Shown here piece by piece: positions 21,132-64,000 of a DNA stretch of 64,000 nucleotides (the stretch's first letter is position 1; the number at the start of each line of letters is the position of its first letter). The position numbers were made by a program, and so were the translations under genes. Source of the stretch: Limihaloglobus sulfuriphilus. GTDB lineage: Bacteria; Planctomycetota; Phycisphaerae; Sedimentisphaerales; Sedimentisphaeraceae. Under the pieces are notes generated by a model. That model was not told where the DNA came from. It saw only the letters and a list, made by a program, of their open reading frames with translations, and made no database searches. Location of the stretch: the NCBI RefSeq assembly GCF_001999965.1, contig NZ_CP019646.1, positions 1,798,001 through 1,862,000 of the forward strand, in the 5' to 3' direction.

Positions 21132-21172
21132 TTTATAATACCTCATATAATTTTACTTTTTAAACATACTTG

Positions 21173-30851: not shown

Positions 30852-30875
30852 AGATGTTTTCCTGTTATAAGTTTC

Positions 30876-33851: not shown

Positions 33852-33877
33852 TGGCATACCTTTCAAGCTATAATACA

Positions 33878-34852
33878 TCAGTTACAGTTAACATCTTCCG
33901 GGTCATTGCAGCTGAGCCAGGTATCTGCCAGCATGGCAAAATCCGCAATATCAACATGACAGTCTTCGTTGATATCCGCTGTATATCCGCCGCCGAAAAG
34001 CATAAGCTGCTCGCATGTATCAGGGTAAAGCTCGTACGTAACCCATACGTTGTCAACGCTTACAGCGACATCATCATCTGGAAAGCCAAGACCGTCAACG
34101 AATACCGATACCGTGTCAAATGTGAAATAGTCAGGATCAGAAGGCGTATCGATCACATCTGTGATGATGTAGCCGGGGCCGACCCTTGCGCTTAGACTGA
34201 GCGTCGTCTCATCTAATCTTGTAACTGCGATATCCATGTCGGTTACCAGGTCCTGACAGTTGTAAGAACGGAAAGTGTCTAACAACTGATAACTGATGAA
34301 GTGATCTGTGGATGTACCCTCTGTAACCTTTCTGATGCTGGCGTAGCCGTCGGTAGTTCTGCCGGGGTTTGTGATCACAAAGTATCCGGTATCATCAACC
34401 CTTTCACCGCCGGTGCCCGAGCCGTCGCCGGTGTCTCTGGTTTCGTTCGAATTAAAGAGGCCAAACATCAAAGCTCTGTCAAAAGATGCGTCTGAAGGCT
34501 CAAGAAACTGAAACCTGATTATCGCTTTTAGTGTCTCACCGACCTCAAGCGTGATCGGGTCAACCGCGATAGAATTGGGAATCGCATAATTCTGCCCTGT
34601 AAAATGTGCCCAGAACTGATGAACACCGGCCTCCAGTGTCTCAAGGCGGTAATTGGGAACCTCTGTGTTGACAAAGATTGAATCCGCAGCCATTCTTGAA
34701 AACCAGTGCATCGAGTATGGTATATCCTGTGTGTGGCGCTCTCTGTCAGTGAACTGGTCGTTAACAATTGTTGCATTGATAATATCCTGGGCAGCGACAG
34801 TGAATGTCAAACTCAAGATTACCAGAGTCGGTAACAATACTTTTTTTAACAT
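33878..34852 (-). CDS. Secreted protein with new repeated domain and four-Cys dockerin-like tag
   Basis: 324 residues, signal peptide to about residue 21. No known family recognised. Residues about 25-280 form a beta-rich domain found four times in this window. Its blocks are NDQFTDRERHTQ, QFWAHFT, FDRALMFGLFNSNETRD, DDTGYFVITNPGRTT, TDHFISY and FDTVSVFVDGLGFPDD. The C-terminus is a dockerin-like tag (DINEDCHVDIADFAMLADTW, then LSCN) with four cysteines. AAGGAG lies well placed before the ATG. The motif set, with jellyroll-like spacing, suggests a carbohydrate-binding role, but nothing shows a catalytic site. It follows the SASA-type gene by 64 bp. Confidence 0.7.
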   Translation of the reverse strand: MLKKVLLPTLVILSLTFTVAAQDIINATIVNDQFTDRERHTQDIPYSMHWFSRMAADSIFVNTEVPNYRLETLEAGVHQFWAHFTGQNYAIPNSIAVDPITLEVGETLKAIIRFQFLEPSDASFDRALMFGLFNSNETRDTGDGSGTGGERVDDTGYFVITNPGRTTDGYASIRKVTEGTSTDHFISYQLLDTFRSYNCQDLVTDMDIAVTRLDETTLSLSARVGPGYIITDVIDTPSDPDYFTFDTVSVFVDGLGFPDDDVAVSVDNVWVTYELYPDTCEQLMLFGGGYTADINEDCHVDIADFAMLADTWLSCNDPEDVNCN

Positions 34853-42657: not shown

Positions 42658-43821
42658 TTACTGCCTGATTATCTGGCCAAATCGTTCTCTATGTTCGCTG
42701 GGGCTTATACCGGTTTCACGCCTGAAATAACGTGAAATATTGTTAACGCTTGTAAAACCGAGAATTATAGCAATTTTATAAATGGAGAGATTTGTTTCTT
42801 CAAGCATTCTGGCAACCCGCTGAACTCTTGCCCTGCGTATTTCCTGCAATACAGAGCGGTTTCTCTCGTTGCGGAATTTCTGCTCAAGTGTCCTGCGTGA
42901 AGCAACAACCGCCTCGGCGACATCGGTAACCTGGATTGGACGTTTACTGTTTACGTAGATAAAATCAAGCGCCCTTGCGACTAACGGCTCGTTTGTAATA
43001 AGAGCAGGGGTTGAGCCTCTTTCAATTACTCTAAGAGGGAAGGCAGATATCATCCGCGGCTCATATTTCGCCCCGTCCATGAGTTCTTTCAGGAATTCCG
43101 CGGCCTCATAACCTGTTCTTTCGTAATCAAGCTCTATGCTGGAGAGTATCGGATTTGTCAGATGGCAAATCAGTCTGTCATTATCAACACCTAAAACCGC
43201 CACCTCATTAGGGACTGAAATTCCCTGATTTTTACACGCCTCAAGAATGTGCAGCGCTCTGTCATCATTACAGGCCATAACCGCCACCGGCTTAGGCAGT
43301 GACTTTAGCCAGTCCATGAGCAATTTTTGCTCCTTTTCCCAGGGCCGCTGGTACCGCATCTGCGGGCGGCTGTAGAATTGAATTTTAAATCCATGCTTCT
43401 TGAGCTCATCTCTGAACGCTTCCCCTCTTTCTGTTGACCAGTACATATCACTCCAACCGCAGAATGCAAAGTTGCGGAAATTCTTCTCTAAGAAAAAATC
43501 AGCGGCCATTTTGCCGATAGCCCCGCTGTCAGGATGGATTGTGTGGACGCTGTGATATTTTTGCTTCCCTCCAAAAGCTATAACAGGCAGCCCGGGGCGG
43601 CGAAGTTTTTCAAGCTGTTCAAGCTCAGAGACATGCGCTACTATGCCGTCGGCATTCCAGTTCTCCAAAATTGGAATAACTCTTTCATGCTGACCGCCCG
43701 GTTCGTTGTAAAACGTCCACGGCCCGTGAAGTCTGGCATATTTTGTTATGCCCGACAACAAAGCACGATCATAACCCCGGGCAGTCGATATAAGCAGAAT
43801 AACCTTGGGTATATTTGGCAT
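42658..43821 (-). CDS. XylR-like regulator (LacI-type sensor plus AraC-type HTH)
   Basis: 387 residues, cytoplasmic. Residues about 5-275 are a periplasmic-binding-type sensor (KVILLISTARGYDRALLSGI, EVAVLGVDNDRLICHLTNP, SSIELDYERTGYEAAEFL). Residues about 285-385 are an AraC DNA-binding domain with two helix-turn-helices (IQVTDVAEAVVASRRTLEQK, SIYKIAIILGFTSVNNISRYF). This order is that of the xylose regulator XylR, usually a sugar-dependent activator that binds direct repeats. It is encoded just after the terminator of the lyase operon. The paired direct repeats at 60505-60537 and 60916-60948 fit this class of protein. Confidence 0.9.
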   Translation of the reverse strand: MPNIPKVILLISTARGYDRALLSGITKYARLHGPWTFYNEPGGQHERVIPILENWNADGIVAHVSELEQLEKLRRPGLPVIAFGGKQKYHSVHTIHPDSGAIGKMAADFFLEKNFRNFAFCGWSDMYWSTERGEAFRDELKKHGFKIQFYSRPQMRYQRPWEKEQKLLMDWLKSLPKPVAVMACNDDRALHILEACKNQGISVPNEVAVLGVDNDRLICHLTNPILSSIELDYERTGYEAAEFLKELMDGAKYEPRMISAFPLRVIERGSTPALITNEPLVARALDFIYVNSKRPIQVTDVAEAVVASRRTLEQKFRNERNRSVLQEIRRARVQRVARMLEETNLSIYKIAIILGFTSVNNISRYFRRETGISPSEHRERFGQIIRQ

Positions 43822-43877
43822 TTATTATATCTCCAATGACTGCCGGTAATTGTATCAGGTCACCATCGCAAAACAAT

Positions 43878-43913
43878 AAAAAAAACGCCGCCGCTTTAAA
43901 TTTACGGCAGCGT
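43878..43913 (-). terminator. Rho-independent terminator of the lyase operon
   Basis: On the minus strand ACGCTGCCG pairs with CGGCGGCGT (one T-G wobble, 11-base loop) followed by eight T. It lies 15 bp past the stop of the DUF2264 gene and separates the glycosaminoglycan-type operon from the regulator gene at 43821. Confidence 0.92.
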
Positions 43914-43927
43914 GTTAATCAGTAAAA

Positions 43928-45802
43928 TCATTTAAGATCGGGAATATCACACTCAAAAACAGGGCTCTTGGCACCTGGGATTGATATCTTTAGACTGCCC
44001 GATTCAACCGTGGCTGTCGGCTTAGCGGATATCATCTCGCTAAGTTCCGTATCTGTATTGGCTCTAACCGCACAAACCAGAAGGCTTATGCCTTTATCCA
44101 GCTGGCCGGTCAACATCGGAATCGCTGTCCTTTGATGTATCAGGTTGGTATTCGGGCTTGGCTTAATTATCTGCGGGTCACGTTTTCCAAGTAAGTCCGC
44201 GATAACGCTGGTGCCCCAGGGGTAATTTGCCGCCGCCAGTGAGTTTTCACAGTGAATTGTCTCAGAATCCGGCGGGTACTGTAAGTCTTCTTCTCTTGAC
44301 AGGGCGAAACCGCCCTCCGCGGCAACTAATTTCCTCCGGCTGTCAATCAAATGCACTCTGACATGCCAGGGATTAGCCGCGATGAGCCATGTTTTGACCG
44401 ATACATCGTTCCATGGACGCCACAATGAATAGATACATTCAGGGCTGATCTCGAATTGTTCGCACTTTCTTCTGGTTCTGTAAACATTGTCGTCCTGCTC
44501 AATAAGTGCCAGCGTTGAATCGAAAGCCCCCTGCTCAAGGCTGTTCATTTCCCTTGGAACACTGAATCCAAACCTGTTTGAATACGCGAACTTAGAATAC
44601 TTGGCAGCGTTATGACTGAACTCCATACCTGGGAACTGGCCTGAAGTCAGCGAAAAAACGTGGTCTTTGTCGCGGCAGATTGTCATTCTGCAATGCTCCA
44701 GGGTCACAGTCGCCTTCAGCTCCGGCAGGGGTTTTTCCTCTGCCTGCCAGAATGGATGCTGTTCATCTAAGGCAAGCGGCAGAAACGCCTTAAAAGCCCA
44801 ATAGGGTGAGCCCGGAGCGTTATAAATTTCAGACATAAACAGGTTTGGATAACAATAACCAATAGACATAATCCCGTTTGGATAGTAGATAGGCTGACGC
44901 AGCCACCATCTAAGATGCCTTAAATACAGACCTTTTACAATGCCCCAGTCATCGAACGCGTCAACATCGGCAAACGCCAGAGCACCCCAGAAGGCACCCT
45001 GCGCAAAACGATAGGTCAAACTTCTGCCAAAAGGTACGGCAGAACCGTCAGAGGCAAACCAGTAGATAAAATCTTTGGCAAACTCCGCCGCACGTTCACG
45101 AAAGCGCCGCGACCTTTCAGGGTCAATATCAGACATGAGATGGGCATAGATCAAAGCGTAATAGTGCATAGCGAAGGGGATATAATAATCACGCTGCTCT
45201 CTTTTATAGCCGTCGGAATACCAGCCGTCAGAGATGTAGAAATCTTCCATTCTCTGAAGATATTCATCGTTGCGTTCTTTATTATAATCCAGCCCGAGCT
45301 TTTGAAAAGCCATGTTGACCAGTATAGCCATAAACTTCCAGTTACAATCGGGAAGCTCCTTATCATTGCACTGGTCCAGCCAGCAGACAAAATTCTTTTT
45401 CTGCTTCTCGTCTAAGCTGTCCCATATTACATCACTGCCAAGCGAGAGGCCAAGGGCTAAAGGAGGCATCTCGACAACTCTCTGATCTACATCCCATATT
45501 TTACCCCAGTATTCAGGGTGCTGAGGGTCTGTACCGTTTTTAATGCCTTCGATGCACTTATCCCAAAGTTCTGTTTCTCCGCCGCCGGCAACTAACGGAA
45601 CCAGGCCCCAGAGAGGACGGGAAAAAGATTCCATAACCGCGGCGATTTCTTCGTAATTAGCACCGCTGGTGCCCGCGTAAACCCTTGCGCAGCCCGGGCT
45701 GTAGAGATCCTTTAAAGGACTGCACAGCTGAGAAACTGCCGTCTGCACATCTTTTCTGGTTTTTACAGGGTTCTTTGTAATTGGTAAATCGAAATATTGC
45801 AT
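43928..45802 (-). CDS. DUF2264 protein, GH154-like putative glucuronidase
   Basis: 624 residues, no signal peptide, so cytoplasmic. The N-terminal two thirds are helical in the (alpha/alpha) barrel style of DUF2264 (SFSRPLWGLVPLVAGGGE, DCNWKFMAILVNMAFQKLG, DGWYSDGYKREQRDYYIPF, YPNGIMSIGYCYPNLFMSE); the C-terminal third is beta-rich. As I recall, DUF2264 proteins are placed in CAZy family GH154, where beta-glucuronidase activity was reported; the window itself cannot confirm it. As last gene of the operon, 12 bp after GH3, it may split the uronic acid residue from imported disaccharides, a job more often done by GH88, which is absent here. Confidence 0.75.
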   Translation of the reverse strand: MQYFDLPITKNPVKTRKDVQTAVSQLCSPLKDLYSPGCARVYAGTSGANYEEIAAVMESFSRPLWGLVPLVAGGGETELWDKCIEGIKNGTDPQHPEYWGKIWDVDQRVVEMPPLALGLSLGSDVIWDSLDEKQKKNFVCWLDQCNDKELPDCNWKFMAILVNMAFQKLGLDYNKERNDEYLQRMEDFYISDGWYSDGYKREQRDYYIPFAMHYYALIYAHLMSDIDPERSRRFRERAAEFAKDFIYWFASDGSAVPFGRSLTYRFAQGAFWGALAFADVDAFDDWGIVKGLYLRHLRWWLRQPIYYPNGIMSIGYCYPNLFMSEIYNAPGSPYWAFKAFLPLALDEQHPFWQAEEKPLPELKATVTLEHCRMTICRDKDHVFSLTSGQFPGMEFSHNAAKYSKFAYSNRFGFSVPREMNSLEQGAFDSTLALIEQDDNVYRTRRKCEQFEISPECIYSLWRPWNDVSVKTWLIAANPWHVRVHLIDSRRKLVAAEGGFALSREEDLQYPPDSETIHCENSLAAANYPWGTSVIADLLGKRDPQIIKPSPNTNLIHQRTAIPMLTGQLDKGISLLVCAVRANTDTELSEMISAKPTATVESGSLKISIPGAKSPVFECDIPDLK

Positions 45803-45814
45803 GAGAAAACCTGA

Positions 45815-47542
45815 CTATTTTTTACCGTAGATAAGTTCTGCCGCGGCCTCAAGAGATTCAGGCGCAACGCCGTATGTATTGATCACGGTTTTGAATTTAT
45901 CGGAAACTGTGAGCGGATAGTGAGAGTTTGTAACAACAATAACCGGTTTGCCTTTTTTGTGAAGCTCTTCGATATAATCAGTGTCATTATGCTCTCTTCT
46001 GTCGAAATAGTTAGTAACTACCAGCACATCCGCCTCATCAAGACGATTTTCTATCCTGGCCTTGTCATCATCAGTATAGCACATTTCAGTCTCAACAATG
46101 CCGACGTTTTCAGAGTGTTTGCACATGATTTCCCAGAAGATACCAGGGTGGCATTTCTGGCTGTTGATACGTACATGGAGCGGATTACGCTGTTCTACCA
46201 GAATAACCTTAGTGTCCGGGCTTAACGGCAGAATTTCGTTTTCATCTCTCATCAGCTTCAAGCTGGCCTCGGCGGTTTCTTTCGCAATTTGAGCTACACG
46301 GGGGTCAAGAAAACCCTCATCAGCTTTTGTCTCGTCGGCGAGATTACCGTTTTCGAACAGACCATAATCATACTTAACACTCAGCGTACGGGCAATAGCC
46401 TCATCAAGCCTTTCTTCCGGCAGATCGCCCTTGTAGGCAGAATCAACCAGTTTTTCGATAACCTCATCAATCAACGGGCTCTCATCCCGCAGAAGGATCA
46501 GATCAGAACCGGCCATTATTGAACGCCTGCACGCCTCGTAAACTTCGTATTTCTGAACGATGCCGCCCATTGTTATATCATCAGTTGTAACGGTTCCCTC
46601 AAAACCCATCTCATTTCTAAGCAGATCGATAAGAAGCGGCTTAGAAAGTGTACTCGGCTCTTTGTCATCGTAAGCCGGATATACAGTATGGGCAGTCATG
46701 ATGGAAGGAATCCCGGCATCAACCAGCGCCTGGAAAGGTTTTAAATGTTCCTGCATCTGCCCTTTGTCAAGATTGATGTACGGCAGGCCGGCATGAGCAT
46801 CTTCTTTGGAGGCACCTCTGCCGGGGTAATGCTTGCCAGAAGTTATCAGCCCGCCGTCTCTGTAACCTTCAAACGCGGCGGTGGCAAATTTAATCACCTC
46901 TTGGGCAGTTTCACCGTAAGCTCTGTCTGATATTTCCGGATTCAGCGGCTCAGTATTTACGCCAAGTACCGGAGAATGAAGCCAGTTAACGCCAATACTC
47001 CTCAGCTGTCTGGCTGTAGCCCACGCGGCGTTGTACGCCTGCTGCGGGTCGCCGCTCTTTGCAAGGCCCATCGGCATTGGGAAGTTATATATCCCGCCTC
47101 TGGTGTAATCACAGCTGACGCCGCCTTCCATATCCATTGTAACGTGCAGCGGGACTCCAAGACCGTTATCCAACGCTTCCTGCTTCATGGTGTTAAGGAA
47201 GCGGCAGTATTCTTCGTTTGTGCAGTGCGGAACGGTGTTATCTTCCACGTAGTCCTTTACGCTGCGTACCGGAGAACGCAAAACCCTGTCGGCAAATTCC
47301 CGACTTGTGGCATAGGGGTCATGCCTTGCGGTCTTGCTGCGGAAGGTCAGCCCCGCCCTGATACCTGATGGATAGTAATTGCGGATTCTACGCAGTATTT
47401 CCGGTGTTATAATAGTACCGCAAAAACCTATCACAAAACATTGGCCGACTTTCTGCTCAATGCTCATCTCTGCGATAAGTTTGCTTATCAATTCTTTCTT
47501 GCTCTGTTTCCTGCTTGTTTTTTCCATTAGTTCTGGACTCAT
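45815..47542 (-). CDS. GH3 beta-N-acetylhexosaminidase-type enzyme
   Basis: 575 residues, no signal peptide, so cytoplasmic. The NagZ-type signature GKHYPGRGASKEDAHAGLP is at 236-254 with the Asp248-His250 dyad that serves as acid/base in GH3 hexosaminidases, and the nucleophile is D321 in TVTTDDITMGG. A GH3 C-terminal domain follows (about 400-575). AAGGAA lies 7 bp before the ATG. In a lyase operon it most likely releases N-acetylgalactosamine or N-acetylglucosamine from imported oligosaccharides; a role in peptidoglycan recycling is less likely given the context. It lies between the symporter (39 bp) and DUF2264 (12 bp). Confidence 0.88.
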   Translation of the reverse strand: MSPELMEKTSRKQSKKELISKLIAEMSIEQKVGQCFVIGFCGTIITPEILRRIRNYYPSGIRAGLTFRSKTARHDPYATSREFADRVLRSPVRSVKDYVEDNTVPHCTNEEYCRFLNTMKQEALDNGLGVPLHVTMDMEGGVSCDYTRGGIYNFPMPMGLAKSGDPQQAYNAAWATARQLRSIGVNWLHSPVLGVNTEPLNPEISDRAYGETAQEVIKFATAAFEGYRDGGLITSGKHYPGRGASKEDAHAGLPYINLDKGQMQEHLKPFQALVDAGIPSIMTAHTVYPAYDDKEPSTLSKPLLIDLLRNEMGFEGTVTTDDITMGGIVQKYEVYEACRRSIMAGSDLILLRDESPLIDEVIEKLVDSAYKGDLPEERLDEAIARTLSVKYDYGLFENGNLADETKADEGFLDPRVAQIAKETAEASLKLMRDENEILPLSPDTKVILVEQRNPLHVRINSQKCHPGIFWEIMCKHSENVGIVETEMCYTDDDKARIENRLDEADVLVVTNYFDRREHNDTDYIEELHKKGKPVIVVTNSHYPLTVSDKFKTVINTYGVAPESLEAAAELIYGKK

Positions 47543-47581: not shown

Positions 47582-49366
47582 TTATTTTACAACTGAATCG
47601 TCCGCAGATTCCCCGCTTGTAGAGATCAGCAGTAACCCTATAGCAGCGACAAAACCGCCGACAAAAAGTATCCCAAACCTTCCAAAGAATGACCACGGGT
47701 TTGGAAGCAGCATTAAAAAACACACTGCAGCACCAATTACCAGGCATATCCGCCCAACCATCCGGCTCTGTCTTGAATCGTTTCCCACGCCGACTTCCCG
47801 GGCAAAATCTATCGGAGTCTTCATTCGAACGAAAAACTCTTTGACCTGTTCCCTGTATGCCTGGCCGGCGCTCTTCCAGAAAAGTTTTGTGAAATAGAAC
47901 GCACTTATAGAGGCCGCAAAATTAGCGGCTGTCTTTGTCTGCCAGAGCCATGGCTCTTTGAGGAAAGGTACAGACTGAATCAGGCTCGACTCACTTCCGC
48001 TGAAAAAGCCCATTGCCGAAACAATAAAGCCGACAATAACAGAGAAGATGCACGACCAGTGCGGAACTCTCTGCACAAGCAGACCAAGCAGCATCGGAGT
48101 AAGAAGCGGCACCATAAGCATCGCGCTTATATCAAGCATGTACTGGAATATGCCTTTGCTGTCTTTTATTGAGAAATAATACGCAATAGACATAACCATC
48201 AATCCCATAAGGCCCGTTGTAATTCGGCCTACTAAAAGCAGCACACGGCTGTCTTCATCGGGCTCTTTAATACGCAACGCGCGGCATACAGCCGGAAAAA
48301 TGTCGTTAGTTATAACAGCGGAATTGCGGTTAAGGCCCGAATCCATTGAGCTTGTAGTAGCGGCAAACATAGCAACCACCATCAGTCCGGTCAGACCCAC
48401 CGGCAGCAGATTCATACCCGCAATAGCGTAAGAGGCCTCTGCCGGTTTGGCAATGGCTATAGAGTTAACCGCCTCGGGAAACATAAGCCTTGCCGTCATA
48501 GGAGGGATAAACCATATCAGGCTCCCGATAAACATCAAAACCGCGGTGAGCAGGGCTGCCTTGCGGGCTTCATTTCCGGTCTTTACCGAAAAGAATCTCT
48601 GAGCGTTGGTAAGCGAGTTAAATGCGGTAACATTTTTTACCAGTATTATAAACGCCCAGAAATATGTATAATTTGAGTTGAACCTCTGCGGCTCGTTAAA
48701 CATCTTATAATCGGCACTAAGTCCGGCTTCTTTGATTTTGCTGAACAACCCGTCAATGCCGCCCAGCTTAATCATGCAGAGCACCGCCAGAAGTATTGTC
48801 ATCGGCATCAGGATACTGCTCTGTATAAAATCGCTGGCCATGATACCCCAGCTGCCGCCCAGCATTGAGTAAAACAGAACAACAAAACCTATGACAAATA
48901 TGATAACCTGTACATCATAGCCAAAAACCGCCGAGCTGAATATCGCAAGGCCGTAGAGATGAAGTGCGGAAAAACACATCTGTGTCAGAACCGTTATCCA
49001 GGCATAAAACTGGCGGGTTTTCTCTCCAAAACGGTTTCTGATAACCTCTGGAGGGCTGATAACACGCAGCTGCCTGAACCAGGGGGCCAGAAAAGCGGCG
49101 TTAACCAGAAACGCAACAACGTTAGCGAGGAAAATAATCATAGCAGACCAGCCCGCCTCAAAAGCGACGCCGGCGGCTCCGGTAAACGTCCACGCACTGA
49201 AACAGCTCATAAAACAGCTTGCTCCCACAAGCCACCACTTGCCGCGGCAGCCGCTGCGGAAATAATCACTCTTATTTGTGCTGAGCCGTTTGAAAACAAA
49301 CGATACAGCTATAAGAAGCAGTAAATAACCCGCTATAACAGAATATTCTAACCAGGTGTTATCCAT
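47582..49366 (-). CDS. Sodium:solute symporter (SSS family)
   Basis: 594 residues, inner membrane, about 14 helices. Features: LSTNKSDYFRSGCRGKWWLV after helix 1, FYSMLGGSWGIMASDFIQSS, and FAATTSSMDSGLNRNSAVITN near residues 340-360. AAAGGC lies 8 bp before the ATG. It stands 12 bp after the heparinase-type lyase and 39 bp before GH3, so it is the probable uptake route for the disaccharides or amino sugars made by the lyases; this is inferred from operon position. It is the third SSS symporter in the window and not a close copy of the other two. Confidence 0.9.
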   Translation of the reverse strand: MDNTWLEYSVIAGYLLLLIAVSFVFKRLSTNKSDYFRSGCRGKWWLVGASCFMSCFSAWTFTGAAGVAFEAGWSAMIIFLANVVAFLVNAAFLAPWFRQLRVISPPEVIRNRFGEKTRQFYAWITVLTQMCFSALHLYGLAIFSSAVFGYDVQVIIFVIGFVVLFYSMLGGSWGIMASDFIQSSILMPMTILLAVLCMIKLGGIDGLFSKIKEAGLSADYKMFNEPQRFNSNYTYFWAFIILVKNVTAFNSLTNAQRFFSVKTGNEARKAALLTAVLMFIGSLIWFIPPMTARLMFPEAVNSIAIAKPAEASYAIAGMNLLPVGLTGLMVVAMFAATTSSMDSGLNRNSAVITNDIFPAVCRALRIKEPDEDSRVLLLVGRITTGLMGLMVMSIAYYFSIKDSKGIFQYMLDISAMLMVPLLTPMLLGLLVQRVPHWSCIFSVIVGFIVSAMGFFSGSESSLIQSVPFLKEPWLWQTKTAANFAASISAFYFTKLFWKSAGQAYREQVKEFFVRMKTPIDFAREVGVGNDSRQSRMVGRICLVIGAAVCFLMLLPNPWSFFGRFGILFVGGFVAAIGLLLISTSGESADDSVVK

Positions 49367-49378: not shown

Positions 49379-51388
49379 TTAATTGAAACATATAATTTTA
49401 TCTTCAAGGTTGTAGTAAACTTCAAATATATCACTTTTGTATTTGATTTGAAATTTACCCTTATCCGGCTCCAGCGATGATGCGTTTATATTAAAGTCAA
49501 CCTCAGGAGAGCTCCCTTTATAGGGAACAACCGCAGCGGCAAAGAACACAAAATCGTCACAGCTTTGTTTCTCCAGCGTATAGGCACAGGCTTCTCTGGG
49601 CTGTTTTTCGCCGTAAACGTAAGAGACGTACCCCTCGCGCCTTTCAAGGTTCATGCCCTGCTGGGCAAAGGGCTTAACAATGAGATTTACATCGCCGCTG
49701 TAATCGGTTTTGGCTGTTAGCTCGAGCTTGTCATACAGTACTCTGCCGGGAGCAAAATTATAATGACAGGCAACTTCACCCTCCGCAGAGCCGATGGCAA
49801 AATCTAATACGACAAAGAATTCATTGTTGAGGAAAAACACGCCTCTGCGGTGTTTTAGATTTTCATAACTCTGATTCTCGACCAAAACAGCGTCAATATT
49901 CCCGGAGGATTCAAACATAAGAAACTTCGGCGCATATTCAGAGTTCTCGCCGTTTAAAGTAACAGTCTGGTGAGACGAGGTCTTTCTAAACCAGTCCCGC
50001 CACTTTTCGTCACCGCTATATACATACTTGCCCGAATCAGGCATCAGGTGTTTGCCGTATGCATACACCTCAAAAGTCCCGTTATCCGGCTGACAGTGCC
50101 AGCCGCCGTCGGGGCCGTTTTTCATTACAAGACAGACATCATCCTCTGACCAGCCGCTTCTGAATGAATAAAAACCGCTTTTTTTCAGGGCAAAGGCTGT
50201 CTGGGCAGGGGCTGTTCCCTCACTGCCGCCGGTCGCCAGGTACCGGAAATCATCCCTGTCGAACAAATCGGCATATCTTCCCAGAAAACGCCAGAGCGTT
50301 CCTTTGGCATCTTCTGTGCCTTTCCAGGAATCTCCAAACTGAGCTGCCCTGCCGTCGGGCATGGCCGTCTTCATCGTTGCTTCGGCCATCTTTTCAAGAA
50401 GATCCACAAAATTAAATTTACCGTGTCTGCCGTTCATATATGCTATTCCATAGCTTGAGGAGAAACTGTCAACGGTACCGACATGGTAATGCGGAGAAAG
50501 CTCTATGTGAAAACCGTCAGGGTAAACCTGATTGCGTATTTCTCTGTTAAGAATTTTCGCCGCCTTTTCGAGCCATTTATCAGAGTTTTTGAATTCAGGG
50601 AAAAATGAACCGGCAAAACTGAGCCCGTTGGCATTTATCAGGGCTATATTTTTGGTTTCACGGTGGTTTTGGGTTACATAATCTGCATGTTCGCCGTAAC
50701 TGTTTAGAAAATCAATCAAAACGGTCTCGTCAAACTCGCCGGAGTCGAAGAAATACTGAAAATGGTACGTCCAGCTTTTGAGCCTGCTTGAAGCCTCGAG
50801 ACTGCGCCAGGCAAACGCATGGTCGCTGTCATTGGGATTTTTCTTTATCCAGTCCTGCAGCTGAAAGACATATCCGGCGGCATACTTCGAGTCCTTTGTT
50901 CGCTGGTATTGCAGCCCCATAGACTCCCACCAGTACATCCTGTGCAGCTGCCAGAGCCATTCTTTATCCTGCACGGGACTCTGCGACCAGTTTATATCCT
51001 TGCCGCAAAAGTGCGGCGGGTAGCTTTTCTGGCCGATGAATTTATGTTCCAACGCCAGATCCGCCCACTCAGGGTTATCAGCCCAGCCGCGGAAACGCGC
51101 TGACATCAAGCCCCCGCCCAGATTCAGGCTCCCGTCTCTGCCGACAGGATGCTTGACATTGCTTCGCCGGCTGTAGTATTTGAGCAGTTCTTCGCCAAAA
51201 AGCTCGAAATCGCCTTTATCATAAGCGGTTTTTACCTTTTCAAGACCAGGGTAACTCAAATCAAGCTGGGCGCCCAAATTTTCAACCGCTTTTTGCGATG
51301 CAACAGCGATGCTGTTCAAAGCAGAGAAAAGAAAGCACATCAGCAAGATGCTGCCGCTGAATAATACTGTTTTACCGGTGTTTTTCAC
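49379..51388 (-). CDS. Heparinase II/III-type polysaccharide lyase (PL12-like)
   Basis: 669 residues with signal peptide (to about residue 30). Residues about 35-370 are the helical lyase N-domain (LSYPGLEKVKTAYDKGDFE, SLEASSRLKSWTYHFQYF, NHRETKNIALINANGLSFAG, IELSPHYHVG with Tyr301-His302). Residues about 395-669 are the heparinase II/III beta domain with GWHCQPDNGTFEVYAYG (His431) and DSGKYVYSGD. Enzymes of this fold cleave uronic acid linkages by beta-elimination; PL12 members act on heparan sulfate. Subfamily and substrate need testing. It follows the PL8 gene by 2 bp. Confidence 0.82.
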   Translation of the reverse strand: MKNTGKTVLFSGSILLMCFLFSALNSIAVASQKAVENLGAQLDLSYPGLEKVKTAYDKGDFELFGEELLKYYSRRSNVKHPVGRDGSLNLGGGLMSARFRGWADNPEWADLALEHKFIGQKSYPPHFCGKDINWSQSPVQDKEWLWQLHRMYWWESMGLQYQRTKDSKYAAGYVFQLQDWIKKNPNDSDHAFAWRSLEASSRLKSWTYHFQYFFDSGEFDETVLIDFLNSYGEHADYVTQNHRETKNIALINANGLSFAGSFFPEFKNSDKWLEKAAKILNREIRNQVYPDGFHIELSPHYHVGTVDSFSSSYGIAYMNGRHGKFNFVDLLEKMAEATMKTAMPDGRAAQFGDSWKGTEDAKGTLWRFLGRYADLFDRDDFRYLATGGSEGTAPAQTAFALKKSGFYSFRSGWSEDDVCLVMKNGPDGGWHCQPDNGTFEVYAYGKHLMPDSGKYVYSGDEKWRDWFRKTSSHQTVTLNGENSEYAPKFLMFESSGNIDAVLVENQSYENLKHRRGVFFLNNEFFVVLDFAIGSAEGEVACHYNFAPGRVLYDKLELTAKTDYSGDVNLIVKPFAQQGMNLERREGYVSYVYGEKQPREACAYTLEKQSCDDFVFFAAAVVPYKGSSPEVDFNINASSLEPDKGKFQIKYKSDIFEVYYNLEDKIICFN

Positions 51389-51390
51389 AA

Positions 51391-54300
51391 TTAGTCTGCC
51401 TTTATCAATTTTAACTCATAAGTTTCTGCTTCTACGCTCGTAACTTTCAATACTGTTGAATCTTTTGTGTATCTAAAAATCTCAGCGTTTGCCGGCAGAG
51501 CCGCCGCCGACCACCTGCCTTTGAGCTCTATATAATTGTCCTGGGTCTTGCCCTCGTCAAATACATTGCTCTGGTCAATATCAGTTATTCCGCTGAGATG
51601 GGCCCTTCTAAAATCCGGATCACAAACACTTAGCGTAATAACATCTTCAGCACTCCCCGAAACCGCCATCAACACGGGCGTGCTGACCTTTTCTAAAATC
51701 TCATCACCTGCAAAATCGTATTGACTGTCAAATACCGCGTAGCCTCTCAAGCCGGCCTCTTCGAATTCCAGAACGTGGGCCTGCTTGTTTTTCTCTATAA
51801 CCGTATAAGGCAATTTGTCGGCGTATTTTTTCACAGTAATGGCCTTTCCCGGCTGAACGACTATTAAGTATTCATATTCGCCGCCCTTTGGAGCCTTGCC
51901 GTGATCAATCCAGCTGACAGTATAGTCTCCATGAGTGTCACTGGTATTGCGGTCATCGCGGGATTTCTGACTGGCCCGCTCGATTCTCAGGTTCTCTGCG
52001 TCTGCGACAACATAACCGTTGCCGACCGGGTCAGTAAACCATACAGGGGATTTGCCTTGGGACTCGAAACTGTAAGGAAACTCCTTTACAGGACGAGCGT
52101 TTATTATAATAGAATCATCTTGTGAGCTCATCCAGGTTTGCGAAATCGTTGTCTCTGTGGGATATTCTTTATCAGTATTTTCAATATCCGAACCTAAACA
52201 AACGATCAGGTCATCACAGAAGAAAACGCTTTTTCTGGCACTAAACGAGAGGTCAAATACGGTATCGTGGAAATCCATTGCCCACACGCCGTTGCGTCCC
52301 TGTGACTCTACTGCTCCGACAAAGGTCCTGTCGGTGAAGCGTCTTTTTGTGTTGCCGACGTATATCTTTCCTGTCTTGTCAACAGTTTTCGCATCATCTC
52401 TATGCTGAAGTTTATCAATCGGCAGGTGTATAGTTGTGGCATTGGGCCAGCGGTTCCAGTCCCAGCCGTTCTGAAGATTATAGCCGCTGCTGATAAAGTC
52501 AACCGGATCTCCGGAACCGAGTATCTGCATGGATCCGTAACTTAAATACCTGCCGTAGGCATTCTGGCCGGGCCTGCCTTCATAGTTCCATACGTACCGG
52601 CTCCAGCCCTTTACGCTGACCATCCACTCATCTCTCCTGTGAACTGCCAGAGCGCCGTACGGCTTGCTCCAGAAGCCGCTGGGGGCATTTGACTTTTGGA
52701 TACCTTTATCCGCAAAATCCAGCATCAGCTCAATGTCGCCAACCGGATAAAAATACGATATTCCCGTACCACCGTGTGCAAACACATTCTGGAGATATTG
52801 CGACCGGGGCTGCCACAGTCTCATGAAAACCCCCGCCATGTCTTTATCAACAGGCTCTTTTGCCATAGCCATGTATGCGTACGCCGCGATCATTTCGTTG
52901 CCTGTCTCGGCGTTCATAAGGCGGCCGTTAAAAGCTGCCGGGGTATGATACTTGTTCATTATGATTTCCTGGGTGAGCAGGGCATTTTTAAGATTCCGGT
53001 ACGCCTGATCGGAAATCGCAAACTCTGTGCCGCCAAGAAAATGAGTTACTATTGAACTCATATGGAACGCATTGGGGCAGTATGCATTGGCATACACGCC
53101 GCGGTGATGATAACCCAGGTAGTCATTCTTGATCGTGCCTGACCAGCCCGGAGTAACCGCGAGTGCCTGATTGAACCAGTTTACATAGCATTGCATATAC
53201 TGAACCTTTTGCGGAGAATCTTCCATTGCCAGTATTCTTAAAAGCCGGTGCATGGATTTTGTCCGAAGCGCATCTGCGGTAGTGGTATCCTTCAACGGCT
53301 GCTTTACGAATATCTCTCTAAATACAGTAAACCACTCAATCGCTTCAAGCTCTCTGTTGAGTTTGCCGGCAGCCTTTAATTCATCTCTCATTAAGAATAC
53401 GGAATGAACCCAGCTTGATATCCTGTTGCTTATATGGTTCATTGTTCCAAGGCCGCTGCCCTCTGCCCAGCCCTGATCATTGAAAAAGTCGTAGAGCAGC
53501 ATCAGCTTATCTCTGCTTTCGGTGCTGCCGTTTAGTTTGTAATCCAGCGCCAAAGCCAGGAAGGTTTTTTCGCCGAGACTGGTGTGGAAAAAGTTCGGCA
53601 CATAAGGCGAGCGGCTGGCGAAAAGCCCGGTACCTGTTATCCGGCCGTCTTCATGGCGTTTGATATTGTATTTATCAAATTCCTCTATCCCGTTTCTAAT
53701 ATAACTTTGCGTCGCCTCAAGCCTCTTGGAGTATATCTGGTTACCCTTGTACTTGCCGGTGCCGAGAACCCATTTTTCATATCTCTGGGCAATCTTTTCA
53801 AAATCATCTCTCTGACTTTTGCTGATTTGCTCCGGCAGTTCAAATTCGGGCTCAACTTTCGACCATTCATAAGCATCCCAGGTTGCCGTCTCGACTTTGC
53901 CCGGATGACGGTATTGATAGTCGTTGCTGGCATCCCAATGGATATAATCAGTAAAATCCACTATATCAAAATATAAAACACCGCTGCTGTGCCTGCGGGG
54001 CGCCAGAATTTGCAGTTCGCTGATAACCTCTCCTGATTTTAGACCGAGGTCATCCCTGAAACTTACCCACAAGACCCTCCAGCCGGTGAAATTAAGATCA
54101 AAATCTGCGGGGCGGATACTGCGCCTGGATTTTGTTTTAAACTGAAAGCGGATTGCATCATCGATCTGCTCGGTGTTATAAATCCATATCTTGAAACCGC
54201 CGTTACTGCTCTTGCACGCGGCTTCGATCCTGTGCAGAGAATCAACCCTGACAGCGTCAAATTTTTCCCATCTCCACTTTAATGACTTGTCTCCATGCTT

Positions 54301-54501
54301 GCTTCGATGGTCTGTGACAGAAAGTTTGCCGTTTTGACTCCTTAACTGCCAGTTTGAAGGGACATTTCCCGCCTCAAAAGACTCAACGCCGTCAAAAGGG
54401 GAATCCGGCTGAATAAAATATGCAGCACTTGTACCGGCAAAGACAGCCAATACAAAGCATAAAGCAATAAACGTCTTTTTAAAGTTCACATAAGCGGTCA
54501 T
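51391..54501 (-). CDS. PL8 chondroitinase ABC-type lyase
   Basis: 1036 residues with signal peptide (to about residue 27). Residues about 33-190 are the N-terminal sandwich of chondroitin ABC lyases (FEAGNVPSNWQLRSQNGKLS). Residues about 225-615 are the helical catalytic domain. Likely catalytic residues: His466 with Tyr470 or Tyr474 in GYHHRGVYANAY, Arg527 in FNGRLMN and Glu641 before NAYGRYLSYGSMQI. The conserved HRRDEWMVSVKGWSRY block and the beta domains to the C-terminus fit the family. It would depolymerise chondroitin or dermatan sulfate, perhaps hyaluronan. The length matches ABC lyases; the short bacterial hyaluronidases are smaller. Confidence 0.88.
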   Translation of the reverse strand: MTAYVNFKKTFIALCFVLAVFAGTSAAYFIQPDSPFDGVESFEAGNVPSNWQLRSQNGKLSVTDHRSKHGDKSLKWRWEKFDAVRVDSLHRIEAACKSSNGGFKIWIYNTEQIDDAIRFQFKTKSRRSIRPADFDLNFTGWRVLWVSFRDDLGLKSGEVISELQILAPRRHSSGVLYFDIVDFTDYIHWDASNDYQYRHPGKVETATWDAYEWSKVEPEFELPEQISKSQRDDFEKIAQRYEKWVLGTGKYKGNQIYSKRLEATQSYIRNGIEEFDKYNIKRHEDGRITGTGLFASRSPYVPNFFHTSLGEKTFLALALDYKLNGSTESRDKLMLLYDFFNDQGWAEGSGLGTMNHISNRISSWVHSVFLMRDELKAAGKLNRELEAIEWFTVFREIFVKQPLKDTTTADALRTKSMHRLLRILAMEDSPQKVQYMQCYVNWFNQALAVTPGWSGTIKNDYLGYHHRGVYANAYCPNAFHMSSIVTHFLGGTEFAISDQAYRNLKNALLTQEIIMNKYHTPAAFNGRLMNAETGNEMIAAYAYMAMAKEPVDKDMAGVFMRLWQPRSQYLQNVFAHGGTGISYFYPVGDIELMLDFADKGIQKSNAPSGFWSKPYGALAVHRRDEWMVSVKGWSRYVWNYEGRPGQNAYGRYLSYGSMQILGSGDPVDFISSGYNLQNGWDWNRWPNATTIHLPIDKLQHRDDAKTVDKTGKIYVGNTKRRFTDRTFVGAVESQGRNGVWAMDFHDTVFDLSFSARKSVFFCDDLIVCLGSDIENTDKEYPTETTISQTWMSSQDDSIIINARPVKEFPYSFESQGKSPVWFTDPVGNGYVVADAENLRIERASQKSRDDRNTSDTHGDYTVSWIDHGKAPKGGEYEYLIVVQPGKAITVKKYADKLPYTVIEKNKQAHVLEFEEAGLRGYAVFDSQYDFAGDEILEKVSTPVLMAVSGSAEDVITLSVCDPDFRRAHLSGITDIDQSNVFDEGKTQDNYIELKGRWSAAALPANAEIFRYTKDSTVLKVTSVEAETYELKLIKAD

Positions 54502-54666
54502 AAATCAATCCTCAGCTGCAACTTTTGGTAATTTAATTTAACATTCGTAAAACGCAAATCTATTCCGTTATTGTATATTTCGTATAATATTTTATTTCAA
54601 CATAATCTGTCTGATTTATAAATTGGGCTCGCCAGACATTTGAAGACGTGAATCGTATAAGAAGCC

Positions 54667-56962: not shown

Positions 56963-57721
56963 TTAATTCGCCTCAGGAGAAGGCCGGCGAATCGGACCTT
57001 CTTCAATACAGTCTTCAACCAGCTCATCGTATGATGCGTATTCAACGTGAAGATCTATGCATAAGTAGTTGCAGCCGTCGCTGTGCCGTTTGCCGTAATA
57101 GTATTCACCGGGAATCTGCCAGTATTCTCCGCCCCAGAAACGGGTGCGGTCAAAATCAAGCTCCGTCCTGCTGTCGCCCAGAAGTGCCGTCACAGCGTGA
57201 TTTTCGAGTTTTGATTTTTTTCTCGGTTTCCACCAGTCTCCATCTCCGACATCTCTTCTGTAATAGGCTCCGATAAGCCAGTTCCAGCCGTAGCAGAGCA
57301 CCTTTCGGCCATGTACAGCAGCATTTGCTCCTTTAAAGCCGGGGCAGACCAATACCTTCGGAGCATCACCATTGTCGTTCTGCTCATCCGGACGGCCTTT
57401 ACCGTCAAACCAAGGGTCGTTTTTATAGTCCATGTAAGGGGCAATCTCTTTGTACCACCACGTGGTGTGGGGAAACTTGGGAAACAGATCTGATACAGTT
57501 CTGCTGCCTATACCCGTGCCGTCAGCCATCGGAAGCCAGTCGTTATTGTCCATGGTAAACATTTCCACACCCATGCCGATTTGTTTCTGATTGCTTTTGC
57601 AAACAACCCTCTGGGCAAGATTTCTGGCTTTATTGAGAGAAGGCATCATGATAGCCATAAGCAACGCAATAATCGAAATTACTACCAGAAGCTCAATCAG
57701 TGTAAAACCTTTTTTTGTCAT
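56963..57721 (-). CDS. Pseudopilin-like protein
   Basis: 252 residues from the ATG at 57721, six bases after AAAGAG; the ATG at 57739 precedes any ribosome site. Prepilin signal [15 protein letters not shown] with Glu at +5. It is paralogous to the protein at 59570-60346 (shared [51 protein letters not shown]). The H-X9-DG motif is degenerate here (H then nine residues then DL). It lies 31 bp before the BNR protein gene, downstream of a likely terminator. Role of these pseudopilins in a lyase operon is unknown. Confidence 0.8.
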   Translation of the reverse strand: MTKKGFTLIELLVVISIIALLMAIMMPSLNKARNLAQRVVCKSNQKQIGMGVEMFTMDNNDWLPMADGTGIGSRTVSDLFPKFPHTTWWYKEIAPYMDYKNDPWFDGKGRPDEQNDNGDAPKVLVCPGFKGANAAVHGRKVLCYGWNWLIGAYYRRDVGDGDWWKPRKKSKLENHAVTALLGDSRTELDFDRTRFWGGEYWQIPGEYYYGKRHSDGCNYLCIDLHVEYASYDELVEDCIEEGPIRRPSPEAN

Positions 57722-57749
57722 TTTTTCTCTTTCGTTCATCAGTGATTAT

Positions 57750-59569: not shown

Positions 59570-60346
59570 TTAATTTTTTCTCAATGGCCTGGCCCAGCGA
59601 ATCGGACCGCCATTAACGCAATCCTCGACAAGCTCCTCATAACCGGCATGGTTTACAGCGCCCGAGACTGTCAGATAATGAGTCCCATCGTTATGGCGCT
59701 TTGAATAATAATATTCACCCGGTATCTGCCAGTACTCGCCGCCCCATACGCGTGTCCGGTCAAAATCAAGCTCTGTTCGGCTGTCGCCTACCATAGCGGT
59801 GGATTCGTCTGAAGATACCTTAGACCTTTTCCACGGTTTCCACCAGGCCTGAGACGGATCCTGGTCTCTGCTGTTGTAATACGCGCCCAGCCGGTTATTC
59901 CAGCCGTAGCACAAAACCTTTGCGCCGGGCTGACCGATACTGCCGGCAGTAAATGACGGGCAAACCAGAATATCAGGCGCTCTATTCTCAAAATGCTGAT
60001 CAGGGCGGCCCTTTGTATCGAACCACGGGTGATCCTTGAATTCCATATAAGGTGCTATCTCTTTGTACCACCACGTTGTGTGGGGATACTCGGGGAAAAT
60101 GTCTGAAACTGTCCGCCTGCCGATGCCTGTTCCGTCAAGCATTGGCAGCCAGTCGTTATTATCCTGAGCAAAAAACTCAACGCCCAAACCGATCTGCTTC
60201 AAATTACTCTTGCAGACCACACCCTTGGCCGCTTCTCTGGCTTTTTGCAGTGAGGGCATCATAATCGCCATGAGCAATGCTATAATGGAAATCACCACCA
60301 AAAGCTCAATCAGTGTAAAGGCCTTAATTCTATTTGCAGATTTCAT
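59570..60346 (-). CDS. Pseudopilin-like protein, first gene of the lyase operon
   Basis: 258 residues with AGGAGA 6 bp before the ATG. Prepilin signal [14 protein letters not shown] with Glu at +5. Close paralogue of the protein at 56963-57721 over its whole length, with the H-X9-DG motif further altered (H then nine residues then SG). As first gene after the divergent control region it is likely the most strongly expressed of the operon. It may help place exoproteins or lyases at the cell surface; this is inference from position. Confidence 0.82.
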
Positions 60347-60504
60347 TGTTTCTCCTGAATTTAATGGTTTATTTACGGCTTAGCTTTATTATCAAAATTA
60401 TTCATCACCTGTTAATGATGCTCTCGCACGGTTGGCTCTGTGCATTCACAGTATTTCATTTTAACCTGGTTATACGGTAAGCTATCGGCACATTTCTACA
60501 AGCG

Positions 60505-60537
60505 CATTTTGCGTAAACATATTACTCATTTTGCGCA
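60505..60537 (+). promoter_or_regulatory. Paired direct repeat CATTTTGCGYA, site 1
   Basis: CATTTTGCGTA (60505-60515) and CATTTTGCGCA (60527-60537) start exactly 22 bp apart, two helical turns, so both face the same side of the DNA. The site lies 159 bp from the start codon of the lyase operon. Direct half-sites at about 21-22 bp are the usual target of AraC-family dimers, in line with the XylR-like regulator of this locus. Confidence 0.6.
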
Positions 60538-60915
60538 GCACCACAGGACCCATAACCGCCAGCATTAGCTAAATCATTATTATTCATATATTTACATCTC
60601 TATATTCAGTCATAAAACTTAAAAACAAAACATTTTAAAATCACAGACCAGGTGTCTCTAAAAACCCTAATGCTATATATTACAATTACTTACAAATTTA
60701 AATCGAATTAAGTCCAGCTGCACAAATCTTTATGAAACCCGCAAGCCCCGATGAGTCTGTGAAGGAAAGTACAGGAAAAAAATATACTTACAAATAATAC
60801 TCTGATTCGGTTAAAATGTTCGCTGAATATAAACCCAAATCACCGCGGCGAGAGTGCAATCAGCATTGAAACGCTTTTAAAACACACAAAATCGAATCAG
60901 AGACGGAAAATTTAG

Positions 60916-60948
60916 CATTTTGCGCAAAACGCCGTATCATTTTGCGTA
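60916..60948 (+). promoter_or_regulatory. Paired direct repeat CATTTTGCGYA, site 2
   Basis: CATTTTGCGCA (60916-60926) and CATTTTGCGTA (60938-60948), again starting exactly 22 bp apart. It lies 145 bp before the sulfatase ATG at 61093 and 17 bp upstream of a possible -35 box, a usual place for an AraC-type activator. Confidence 0.62.
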
Positions 60949-61092: not shown

Positions 61093-62712
61093 ATGAAATC
61101 AGATACAAATAAAATAAACAGAAGATGCTTCTTAAAAACCGTTGGGCTCTCATCCGTAACTGCTCTTGCGGCAATTGAAAGTTTATCAATGGCTGAAGCT
61201 GAGCCGACCCCGACCGAGAAAGGCGGCATACCCAATATTCTCATATTGAAATCTGATGAGCACAACCCGTTTATAAGCAGTGTAGAAGGCGATCCGGTTG
61301 TCCAGACTCCAAACATGCAGAGACTTGCCCGAATGGGCACATATTACGAGAACTGCTACTGTCTCTCTCCGCTGTGTACGCCGTCACGGTCGGCATACCT
61401 TTCAGGCATGTACGTACACCAGATAAAAACTTACAATAACTGCTGTATATTCAAAGACGACTACCCAACATACGGCGAGGTTCTTAAAGAGCAGGGAATA
61501 CATACTGTCATGGTTGGAAAAACAGACGCTTATCGTGACGCTAACGAATTAGGCTTTTCAGAACTGTTTATCGGAACCTGGCCCGCGGTCAGAAACCCCG
61601 GCGATTTGAATATATCCCGCAGCCCTCTTAAAGTCAGGCCTATGGAAAGACCAGACGGTTCATTACGGCATGAAGGCTATGGAGTTGTCGAAGAGACATC
61701 CTCAAGGGACAGGGCAAGTATTGAATTTGCCATAAACTGGCTGAAAACAAAGGCCTTATCGCTCAATAAGCCATGGACGCTTGAGATAAATACATCAAAG
61801 CCGCACTTTCCAAATGAAGCCACACAGGATCTGTGGGATTTATACTCCGGGCATGAAAGTCTGCCCAAATACGACAAAGACTGCCGCACGGCCCGCCACC
61901 CCTACGCCGAAGACCTGCGTGAACACTTCCAGACAGAAAAATACCCTGAAAGCTCGATAAAAGGCCTCAGACGTGGATATTATGCGGTAATAACATACCT
62001 CGACAGAAAACTTGGTGAACTCCTTGACGTGCTGGAGGAAACCGGCCAGATCAAAAACACAATTATAATCTACACATCCGATCATGGAGAAATGCACGGC
62101 AAGTTTGGACTATGGTGGAAATCCGCACCATTCGACGATTCTGCCCGTGTACCGTTAATAATCGCAGGCCCCGGCTTCAAGAAAAACCACAGGGTTAAAA
62201 CGCCGGTAAACCAGCTTGACTTACAGGCCTGCATCTTTGAAACGCTCAAATGCAGCCGCCCTGCTCACTGGGCAGGCTCGCCGCTGCAGAACATACCCGA
62301 CAATGACCCGCAACGCTGCACGTTTTCTGAATATCACGGACACGGCGTACGGGGAAGCTGGTATATCATCCGCCGGAGAGACTGGAAGTATATCTGGTAC
62401 AAATCAGCTCCAAACCAGCTTTTCAATATGCGGCAGGACCCACAGGAACTGAGCAATGTCATCGACAAATATCCGCAAAAAGCCGCGGAGCTGGAAAAAG
62501 AGCTGAGAAAAATCTGCGACCCTGATAAAGAACATAAAAGGTCAGAAGCATATATAAAGATGGAGCTCGCCGCGATTGAAGCTGCCGGCAAAGCCGGAAA
62601 ATTAAAAATCAGACCCGGCGGACACGCCTGGGCGGCGGAAGATATTGATGATTTTATAAACAGAAAATTCAAAAGGCACAAATCTCCAGACCTGAATAAC
62701 TGGAAAAAATAA
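61093..62712 (+). CDS. Sulfatase (S1 family), Tat-type signal
   Basis: 539 residues. N-terminus KINRRCFLKTVGLSS fits a twin-arginine signal, so export in folded form is likely. The signature is CTPSRSAYLSG with Cys95 as the formylglycine precursor. The N-terminal metal site reads SDEHN, the form seen in several sulfatase subfamilies, and TSDHGEMHG supplies later ligands. The C-terminal subdomain has the PNQLFNMRQDPQELSNV block common in the family. It would remove sulfate from a sugar, probably of the glycosaminoglycan handled by the divergent operon. No clear ribosome site is seen before the ATG. One base separates it from the next sulfatase gene. Confidence 0.92.
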   Translation: MKSDTNKINRRCFLKTVGLSSVTALAAIESLSMAEAEPTPTEKGGIPNILILKSDEHNPFISSVEGDPVVQTPNMQRLARMGTYYENCYCLSPLCTPSRSAYLSGMYVHQIKTYNNCCIFKDDYPTYGEVLKEQGIHTVMVGKTDAYRDANELGFSELFIGTWPAVRNPGDLNISRSPLKVRPMERPDGSLRHEGYGVVEETSSRDRASIEFAINWLKTKALSLNKPWTLEINTSKPHFPNEATQDLWDLYSGHESLPKYDKDCRTARHPYAEDLREHFQTEKYPESSIKGLRRGYYAVITYLDRKLGELLDVLEETGQIKNTIIIYTSDHGEMHGKFGLWWKSAPFDDSARVPLIIAGPGFKKNHRVKTPVNQLDLQACIFETLKCSRPAHWAGSPLQNIPDNDPQRCTFSEYHGHGVRGSWYIIRRRDWKYIWYKSAPNQLFNMRQDPQELSNVIDKYPQKAAELEKELRKICDPDKEHKRSEAYIKMELAAIEAAGKAGKLKIRPGGHAWAAEDIDDFINRKFKRHKSPDLNNWKK

Positions 62713-62713: not shown

Positions 62714-64000
62714 ATGAAAAACAGAAGAGAATTTTTAAAACAGACCCTCTTAACTGCCGGGGTAACACTAACTGGATGTAAAATGAAGAATCAAAACATC
62801 GCAAATACAATAGATAGAAGACCTAACATACTTTACATAATGACTGACCAGCAGTGCGCTTCTGCCATGAGCTGCGCAGGAAACCCCGACCTCAAGACCC
62901 CCGCTATGGACAGTATCGCGGCCGAGGGTGTGATGTTCGAAAAGGCCTACTGCACACAGCCGGTCTGCGTGCCCTCCAGAGTGAGCATGTTTACGGGAAA
63001 GATGCCCCACGAAACAGAAGTTACATACAACACAGAAGACTACGGGCTTAGCCCGAAAAACGGTATTATCGGAAAGATAATGAACGAAGCGGGATATGAC
63101 TGCGGCTATGCCGGCAAATGGCATGTCACAATACCGCCGCGGGATATAGACCTCCACGGTTTTGAAACAATCTTTACCACAGTACCAAAAGGGCAGCGGC
63201 TTCTTCACGGTTTTGGCGAACAGACAGAGGCCGCGGACCACAGCGACTTTCAAATACCTGAATTCACCGGCAAATTCCTTGATCGCCGCCGCGAGAAACC
63301 TTATTTTCTGTTTGTCTCATTCACTAACCCGCATGATATCTGCCAGTGGGCACGGGGCGACAGCCTCCCAAACGGAGATATCGGCGAGGCTCCCGAAGCT
63401 GAAAAATGCCCGCTGCTGCCGGATAATTTTGAAATCCCCAAAGACGAGCCGTCTATTATCCGCACTCACAAAAGCCAATCACCCAAGATGTACCCCTCCG
63501 GCGACTGGCAGGACGATAAATGGCGCCAATACAGATGGGCGTATTACAGGTGCACTGAGCTGATTGACTCTCTTATAGAAAAAGTCCTCAAGCAGGCACG
63601 CGGCATCGAGAGCACCAGGGAAACCGTAATTATCTTCACCAGCGACCACGGCGACGGCAATGCGGCCCACAAATGGAACCAGAAAATGGTTCTCTACGAA
63701 GAGCCGGCACGAATCCCCCTGATAATAACCACTCAAAACAAGAAATTAAAAAACACAAAAGACTCCACGCACCTTGTCTCAAACGGATTGGATTTAATTC
63801 CAACAATCTGTGACTACGCCCAAACCAGCCCGCCCCAGGACCTCCGGGGACTTAGTCTTAAAGATATAGTCCAAAAAGGCAGCACAGAGAAGTGGCGGGA
63901 TTATGTAGTTTGCGAAACAGACCTGCACCACAAATACGGCCAACCTGACGGCAATCTTGGACGTATGCTCAGAACTGACAATTACAAATACATCATTTAC
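62714..64000 (+). CDS. Sulfatase (S1 family), 3' end cut by the window
   Basis: 429 residues visible, in frame to the last base with no stop. The N-terminus MKNRREFLKQTLL has a twin-arginine motif and a lipobox-like TLTGC (Cys22). The signature is CVPSRVSMFTGK with Cys85 as the formylglycine precursor. Metal ligands are suggested by TDQQ (44-47) and TSDHGDGNAAHKW. It starts one base after the previous stop, so the two sulfatases are translated from one mRNA. A second sulfatase with a different signature suggests removal of sulfate at a different position on the same polymer. Confidence 0.9.
   Translation, partial: MKNRREFLKQTLLTAGVTLTGCKMKNQNIANTIDRRPNILYIMTDQQCASAMSCAGNPDLKTPAMDSIAAEGVMFEKAYCTQPVCVPSRVSMFTGKMPHETEVTYNTEDYGLSPKNGIIGKIMNEAGYDCGYAGKWHVTIPPRDIDLHGFETIFTTVPKGQRLLHGFGEQTEAADHSDFQIPEFTGKFLDRRREKPYFLFVSFTNPHDICQWARGDSLPNGDIGEAPEAEKCPLLPDNFEIPKDEPSIIRTHKSQSPKMYPSGDWQDDKWRQYRWAYYRCTELIDSLIEKVLKQARGIESTRETVIIFTSDHGDGNAAHKWNQKMVLYEEPARIPLIITTQNKKLKNTKDSTHLVSNGLDLIPTICDYAQTSPPQDLRGLSLKDIVQKGSTEKWRDYVVCETDLHHKYGQPDGNLGRMLRTDNYKYIIY

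Follow-up and report, generated by a model that had tools for sequence, protein, structure and literature searches.

Two direct-repeat pairs between glycosaminoglycan lyase and sulfatase genes of Limihaloglobus sulfuriphilus as candidate operators of a XylR-type regulator

The window analysed here is a stretch of 64,000 nucleotides from the genome of Limihaloglobus sulfuriphilus. In it, a divergent region of 746 bp separates a long run of minus-strand genes from a plus-strand operon (Table 1). The leftward run opens with a prepilin-like gene, followed by LamG and further prepilin-like genes upstream of the PL8 lyase gene. Its last collinear gene encodes a XylR-like regulator with an AraC-type HTH, which the preliminary description had correctly placed at the end of the locus; an acyltransferase-like gene then follows on the same strand. 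On the opposite side, the second sulfatase gene runs past the window to position 64174 and is succeeded by genes for a second PL8 lyase (genome positions 1862159-1866586), a DUF3604 protein and another sulfatase. Chondroitinase and heparinase lyases are thus predicted to occur together with glycosaminoglycan-type sulfatases, and by sequence this is a glycosaminoglycan utilisation locus. From collinearity, we assume that the genes from 60346 to 42658 form a single operon. The run includes gaps of about 165 bp (54501-54667) and 106 bp (43821-43928), which could hold other promoters.

Table 1. Genes, candidate operators and predicted promoter elements at the locus (window coordinates)
Feature	Coordinates	Strand	Basis or remark
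DUF2264 protein	43928..45802	-	sequence match
XylR-like regulator, 387 aa, candidate binder of both pairs	42658..43821	-	LacI-type periplasmic-binding-protein sensor + AraC HTH
GH3 glycoside hydrolase	45815..47542	-	sequence match
Sodium:solute symporter (SSF), candidate importer of sugar products	47582..49366	-	sequence match
Heparinase II/III lyase	49379..51388	-	best solved relative 4mmh, heparinase III, E 1.5e-123
PL8 chondroitinase-type lyase	51391..54501	-	best solved relative 2q1f, chondroitinase, E 2e-113
Prepilin-like protein (N_methyl, DUF1559), first gene of lyase-side run	59570..60346	-	domain matches
Predicted weak -10, TACCGT	60474..60479	-	TAnnnT at offset 34
Predicted -35, TTGTAG, abutting left operator	60496..60501	-	family offset 12; consensus position
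Left operator (candidate)	60505..60537	+	CATTTTGCGTA-N11-CATTTTGCGCA, 22-bp direct repeat; on the - strand CGCAAAATG...CGCAAAATG toward lyase operon
Right operator (candidate)	60916..60948	+	CATTTTGCGCA-N11-CATTTTGCGTA, 22-bp direct repeat; about 145 bp before sulfatase gene, rarer polarity
Sulfatase, first gene of divergent operon	61093..62712	+	sequence match
Sulfatase similar to 2-O-glycosaminoglycan sulfatase 5g2t	62714..64000	+	runs past window

A search of 397 genomes of the class gave no orthologous locus; identity there reaches at most 49% for the XylR protein and 37% for the PL8 lyase. The closest PL8 gene (in genome G372) has no XylR-type gene within the surrounding 20 kb. Few genomes of the class encode a PL8 lyase of this type (3 of the 397 at E <= 1e-100), and the present genome has two. 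The carbohydrate operons of the window contain several prepilin-like (N_methyl) genes (20265-21146, 25864-26640, 56963-57739 and 59570-60346). Two neighbouring DUF6259 genes, each encoding about 1000 aa (27873-33878), are perhaps a tandem duplication.

The sequence CATTTTGCGYA occurs four times in the divergent region, always on the plus strand, and the copies form two pairs. In the left pair, CATTTTGCGTA (60505-60515) precedes CATTTTGCGCA (60527-60537), while the right pair consists of CATTTTGCGCA (60916-60926) and CATTTTGCGTA (60938-60948); the start-to-start distance is 22 bp in each. An exact search thus reproduces the arrangement given in the preliminary description, and is in line with its remark that no other copy was noticed in the window: no fifth exact example was found in the 64 kb. 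Copies with one mismatch lie at 23909, 39540, 45000 and 60921 (minus strand). The distances to the two divergent start codons, previously given as 159 and 145 bp, were recounted: the left pair lies 158 bp from the first lyase-side gene (59570-60346), and the right pair 144-146 bp from the sulfatase gene at 61093, the exact value depending on where the site edge is set. When up to three mismatches are allowed, the complete 33-bp pair pattern occurs in the window only at these two places and not once in 100 shuffles. It was not found again, at unrelated genes or elsewhere, in the whole 3,868,357-bp genome at the same threshold (the reversed-pattern control also gave 0). In the stretch that separates the half-site cores, only 4 of 13 bases are shared by the left and right pairs, so a recent duplication of one pair is ruled out; what the pairs have in common is the half-sites and their spacing.

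Similar pairs occur in related genomes. We counted exact ATTTTGCG pairs in 59 of these for spacings from 12 to 40 bp (background 0.74 per spacing) and obtained 20 at 21 bp, 10 at 22 bp and 20 for the other 27 spacings together. Eight of the pairs at 22 bp lie outside the window (Poisson P ~1e-6). Most pairs with 21- or 22-bp spacing are intergenic (27/30), compared with 6/20 of those at the remaining spacings (p 3e-5). Ten of the 30, but none of the 20, have a XylR-type gene at a distance of up to 8 kb; if such a gene is counted anywhere in the examined stretch, the figures are 14/30 and 0/20, with longer flanks for the window and for one other locus of this genome (L228, see below). For relatives, pairs were counted motif-specifically, an unbiased direct-repeat scan being dominated by simple tandem repeats. 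In 19 relative loci chosen by their XylR protein alone, 12 pairs (up to three mismatches) have a spacing of exactly 21 bp, whereas 20, 22 and 23 bp are not represented. A second collection of loci, mostly from Planctomycetota, also includes 21-bp pairs, often just upstream of xylR (L070, L077, L082, L091, L095, L102). The usual spacing of the family is therefore 21 bp and 22 bp is a minority form. The latter sits on scattered branches of the XylR protein tree, which gives no support to a single origin: six changes are needed, three of them forced by well-supported branches.

The window pairs belong to this family. They are CATTTTGCG direct repeats of the 22-bp form with exact cores, they are intergenic, and a XylR-type gene lies at the end of the same run, 16.7 kb away. 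Judged from the genome-wide association across the order and from this co-occurrence, they are very probably operators for a regulator of the XylR type (a LacI-like sensor with an AraC HTH). The earlier proposal that the repeats are targets of an AraC-type, XylR-like protein is supported by the same association, with binding as its prediction.

The family sites also have a preferred orientation. From 63 distinct intergenic sites, we scored those flanked by a single outward-reading gene: CGCAAAATG reads toward that gene in 27 cases and away from it in 3 (4 if the edge-cut site 3341274 is added; p 3e-5). At 16 of 45 non-window sites, a TTG (-35) occurs at offset 12 from the proximal half-site, compared with at most 3 for any other offset, and TAnnnT follows downstream at offset 34-35. 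Such a fixed promoter beside the sites is, on sequence criteria, a class II layout, in which the activator would touch the -35 region. The left pair has this layout toward the lyases, with CGCAAAATG facing the target, TTG at offset 12 and TAnnnT at offset 34; the -10 could alternatively be TATAAC at offset 39. It thus suits the usual promoter arrangement for the lyase run, with the sulfatase side less certain.

Since both pairs are on the same strand, a point missing from the preliminary description, their polarity is opposite relative to the two divergent genes. Toward the sulfatase gene at 61093, the right pair is therefore in the rarer polarity and does not show the family layout; on its leftward side, TTG at offset 12 is absent. 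Rarer-polarity sites with no other outward gene do exist, including 3341274 and 3347376 in a cluster of this genome at 3.34 Mb. For this reason, we regard control of the sulfatase operon by the right pair as plausible rather than established. Of the joint control of lyases and sulfatases initially proposed, the lyase part is backed by the class II layout at the left pair, whereas the sulfatase part meets the uncommon orientation of the right pair (27 versus 3-4).

The protein encoded at 42658-43821 matches E. coli XylR over its full length (4fe4/4fe7, E 2.5e-50) and carries the Pfam domains Peripla_BP_3, PBP1_XylR and HTH_18. It is thus of the XylR type (a LacI/PBP1-type sensor fused to an AraC HTH). 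Its HTH1 residues SRRxLExKF are common to proteins linked to such sites and are largely present in Bacteroidota relatives too. Unlike many relatives, its gene has no pair directly upstream. The genome contains eight XylR-type genes. One of these (3350334-3351485) encodes a paralogue that groups weakly with the window protein (86/55 in the protein tree) and has its own cluster of 21-bp pairs with a TCATTTTGCG core, one of them 80 bp upstream of the paralogue gene. This cluster (contig C1, 3340004-3351500; L228) includes six 21-bp pairs with the same core, one with three mismatches, among genes mostly without Pfam matches but including the XylR-type gene and an MFS_2 transporter. It is probably another sugar regulon, that of a sister regulator. 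Further 21-bp pairs lie at 2504708-2528289 and 2661128-2666489 of the same contig (L229-L231), near sulfatase, GH2, argininosuccinate-lyase-like and DHDPS-like genes; no XylR-type gene occurs in the examined stretches, and these pairs are possibly orphan members of some XylR regulon. Another XylR-type gene (3691670-3692839) has one in-frame TAG inside the search match, yet a 396-aa open frame is called. As a protein encoded in the locus itself, the 42658-43821 regulator is the natural candidate binder of the window pairs.

We consider it likely that both pairs are operators of a XylR-type AraC-HTH regulator, most likely the 42658-43821 protein, with class II activation of the lyase run. One monomer would bind each CATTTTGCG half-site, so that a dimer would span the 22-bp direct repeat. 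With its proximal half-site next to the -35 of a weak promoter, the left pair would let the bound activator recruit RNA polymerase and so switch on the glycosaminoglycan lyase run. The xylR gene that ends this run would be induced as well, giving positive feedback. A glycosaminoglycan-derived sugar that enters through the SSF transporter is the probable effector. As for the right pair, it most likely places the divergent sulfatase and second-lyase operon under the same regulator, acting either from its less usual orientation or via contact with the left pair.

Several other explanations were weighed. A chance origin without function, with nothing in its favour beyond the shortness of the repeat, is ruled out by the shuffles and the genome scan, and the family-wide spacing and polarity leave it virtually no credit. 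It is rather unlikely that another XylR paralogue, most probably that at 3350334-3351485, or more than one of them, binds the window pairs while the 42658 protein acts elsewhere or shares the sites. The number of XylR-type genes, the weak grouping of the two proteins and the use of TCATTTTGCG pairs in the 3.34-Mb cluster speak for such an assignment, and with the same core at 21 bp the sister paralogue could cross-bind. Its own sites, however, are all 21 bp apart, while the window pairs have 22 bp and other flanks, and the 42658 gene sits in the locus itself.

The alternative to which we give most weight, although we still think it doubtful, is that the lyase operon is the sole target of both pairs. 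The right pair would then be an auxiliary or looping operator like araO2, and the sulfatases would be controlled otherwise. In both pairs, CGCAAAATG faces the lyase operon, in agreement with the polarity bias of the family, and the right pair lies 411 bp upstream of the left, that is, 39.1 helical turns (411/10.5). Against this, 145 bp separate the right pair from the sulfatase start, compared with 569 bp on the lyase side; rarer-polarity sites facing their sole outward gene occur in a few relatives and in the 3.34-Mb cluster; and the sulfatases and second PL8 lyase belong to the same pathway. Repression, in which protein bound on or beside the promoters would block them when sugar is lacking, seems improbable. 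A sigma-70-like TTAGCA-17-TATCAT does overlap the right pair, but it matches the consensus weakly; across the family the operator lies directly next to the -35 and does not cover it, which is an activator layout, and activation is the role of both E. coli XylR and Vibrio XylRA (PMC8647362, PMC12125979). Activation by the XylR-type protein of the locus remains our preferred reading.

XylR-type activators with direct-repeat operators are already known from E. coli (XylR; PMC8647362) and Vibrio (XylRA; PMC12125979), so the kind of system is not new. Our literature search found no description of an operator for XylR-type regulators of Planctomycetota, nor of this operator sequence, its use in planctomycetes or its glycosaminoglycan targets. 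Polysaccharide-degrading enzymes are abundant in this phylum. A readable rule, made up of core, spacing, polarity and promoter position, may permit regulon prediction from sequence across an order, and the locus provides a directly testable candidate regulator-operator pair for planctomycete glycosaminoglycan breakdown. More speculatively, and with the balance against it, the XylR paralogues, which form an expanded set in these planctomycetes, might share the CATTTTGCG core and be kept apart partly by spacing (21 versus 22 bp) and by the bases before the core, the spacing serving as the address of a sugar regulon.

The araI1-I2 site of AraC at araBAD is a direct repeat about two helical turns apart with its proximal half-site beside the -35, and acts by class II activation. 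The left pair resembles it in both the two-turn repeat and the half-site next to the -35; the sensor domain and half-site sequence differ, and the window spacing is 22 rather than 21 bp. The Bacteroides HTCS regulators of chondroitin/hyaluronan (BT3334) and heparin (BT4663) use (PMC3878776) share with the window system an AraC-type HTH, direct-repeat motifs and the same substrates. They are, however, hybrid two-component proteins with a periplasmic sensor domain, whereas the window protein is a one-component regulator with a LacI-type sensor; the SusC/SusD uptake typical of HTCS systems is a further difference. E. coli XylR has the same architecture as the window protein (LacI-type sensor and AraC HTH; 4fe4/4fe7), and xylR is likewise the last gene of one of two divergent units (xylAB and xylFGHR). 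Its operators are described as AT-rich direct repeats (PMC12125979), a likeness to the window pairs that does not extend to a shared sequence: the half-site differs, and a scan of the E. coli xylA-xylF gap gave no CATTTTGCG pair and low profile scores. E. coli XylR controls xylose genes, while the candidate targets here are glycosaminoglycan lyases and sulfatases. Vibrio XylRA, an activator of a beta-1,3-xylan locus with EMSA-shown binding to direct-repeat sites at several promoters (PMC12125979), differs in its ligand (xylose), its substrate (xylan) and its host (Gammaproteobacteria). Like the window system, it combines a XylR-type regulator with a polysaccharide locus that carries direct-repeat sites at several of its promoters; in the present case, binding to the sites is predicted.
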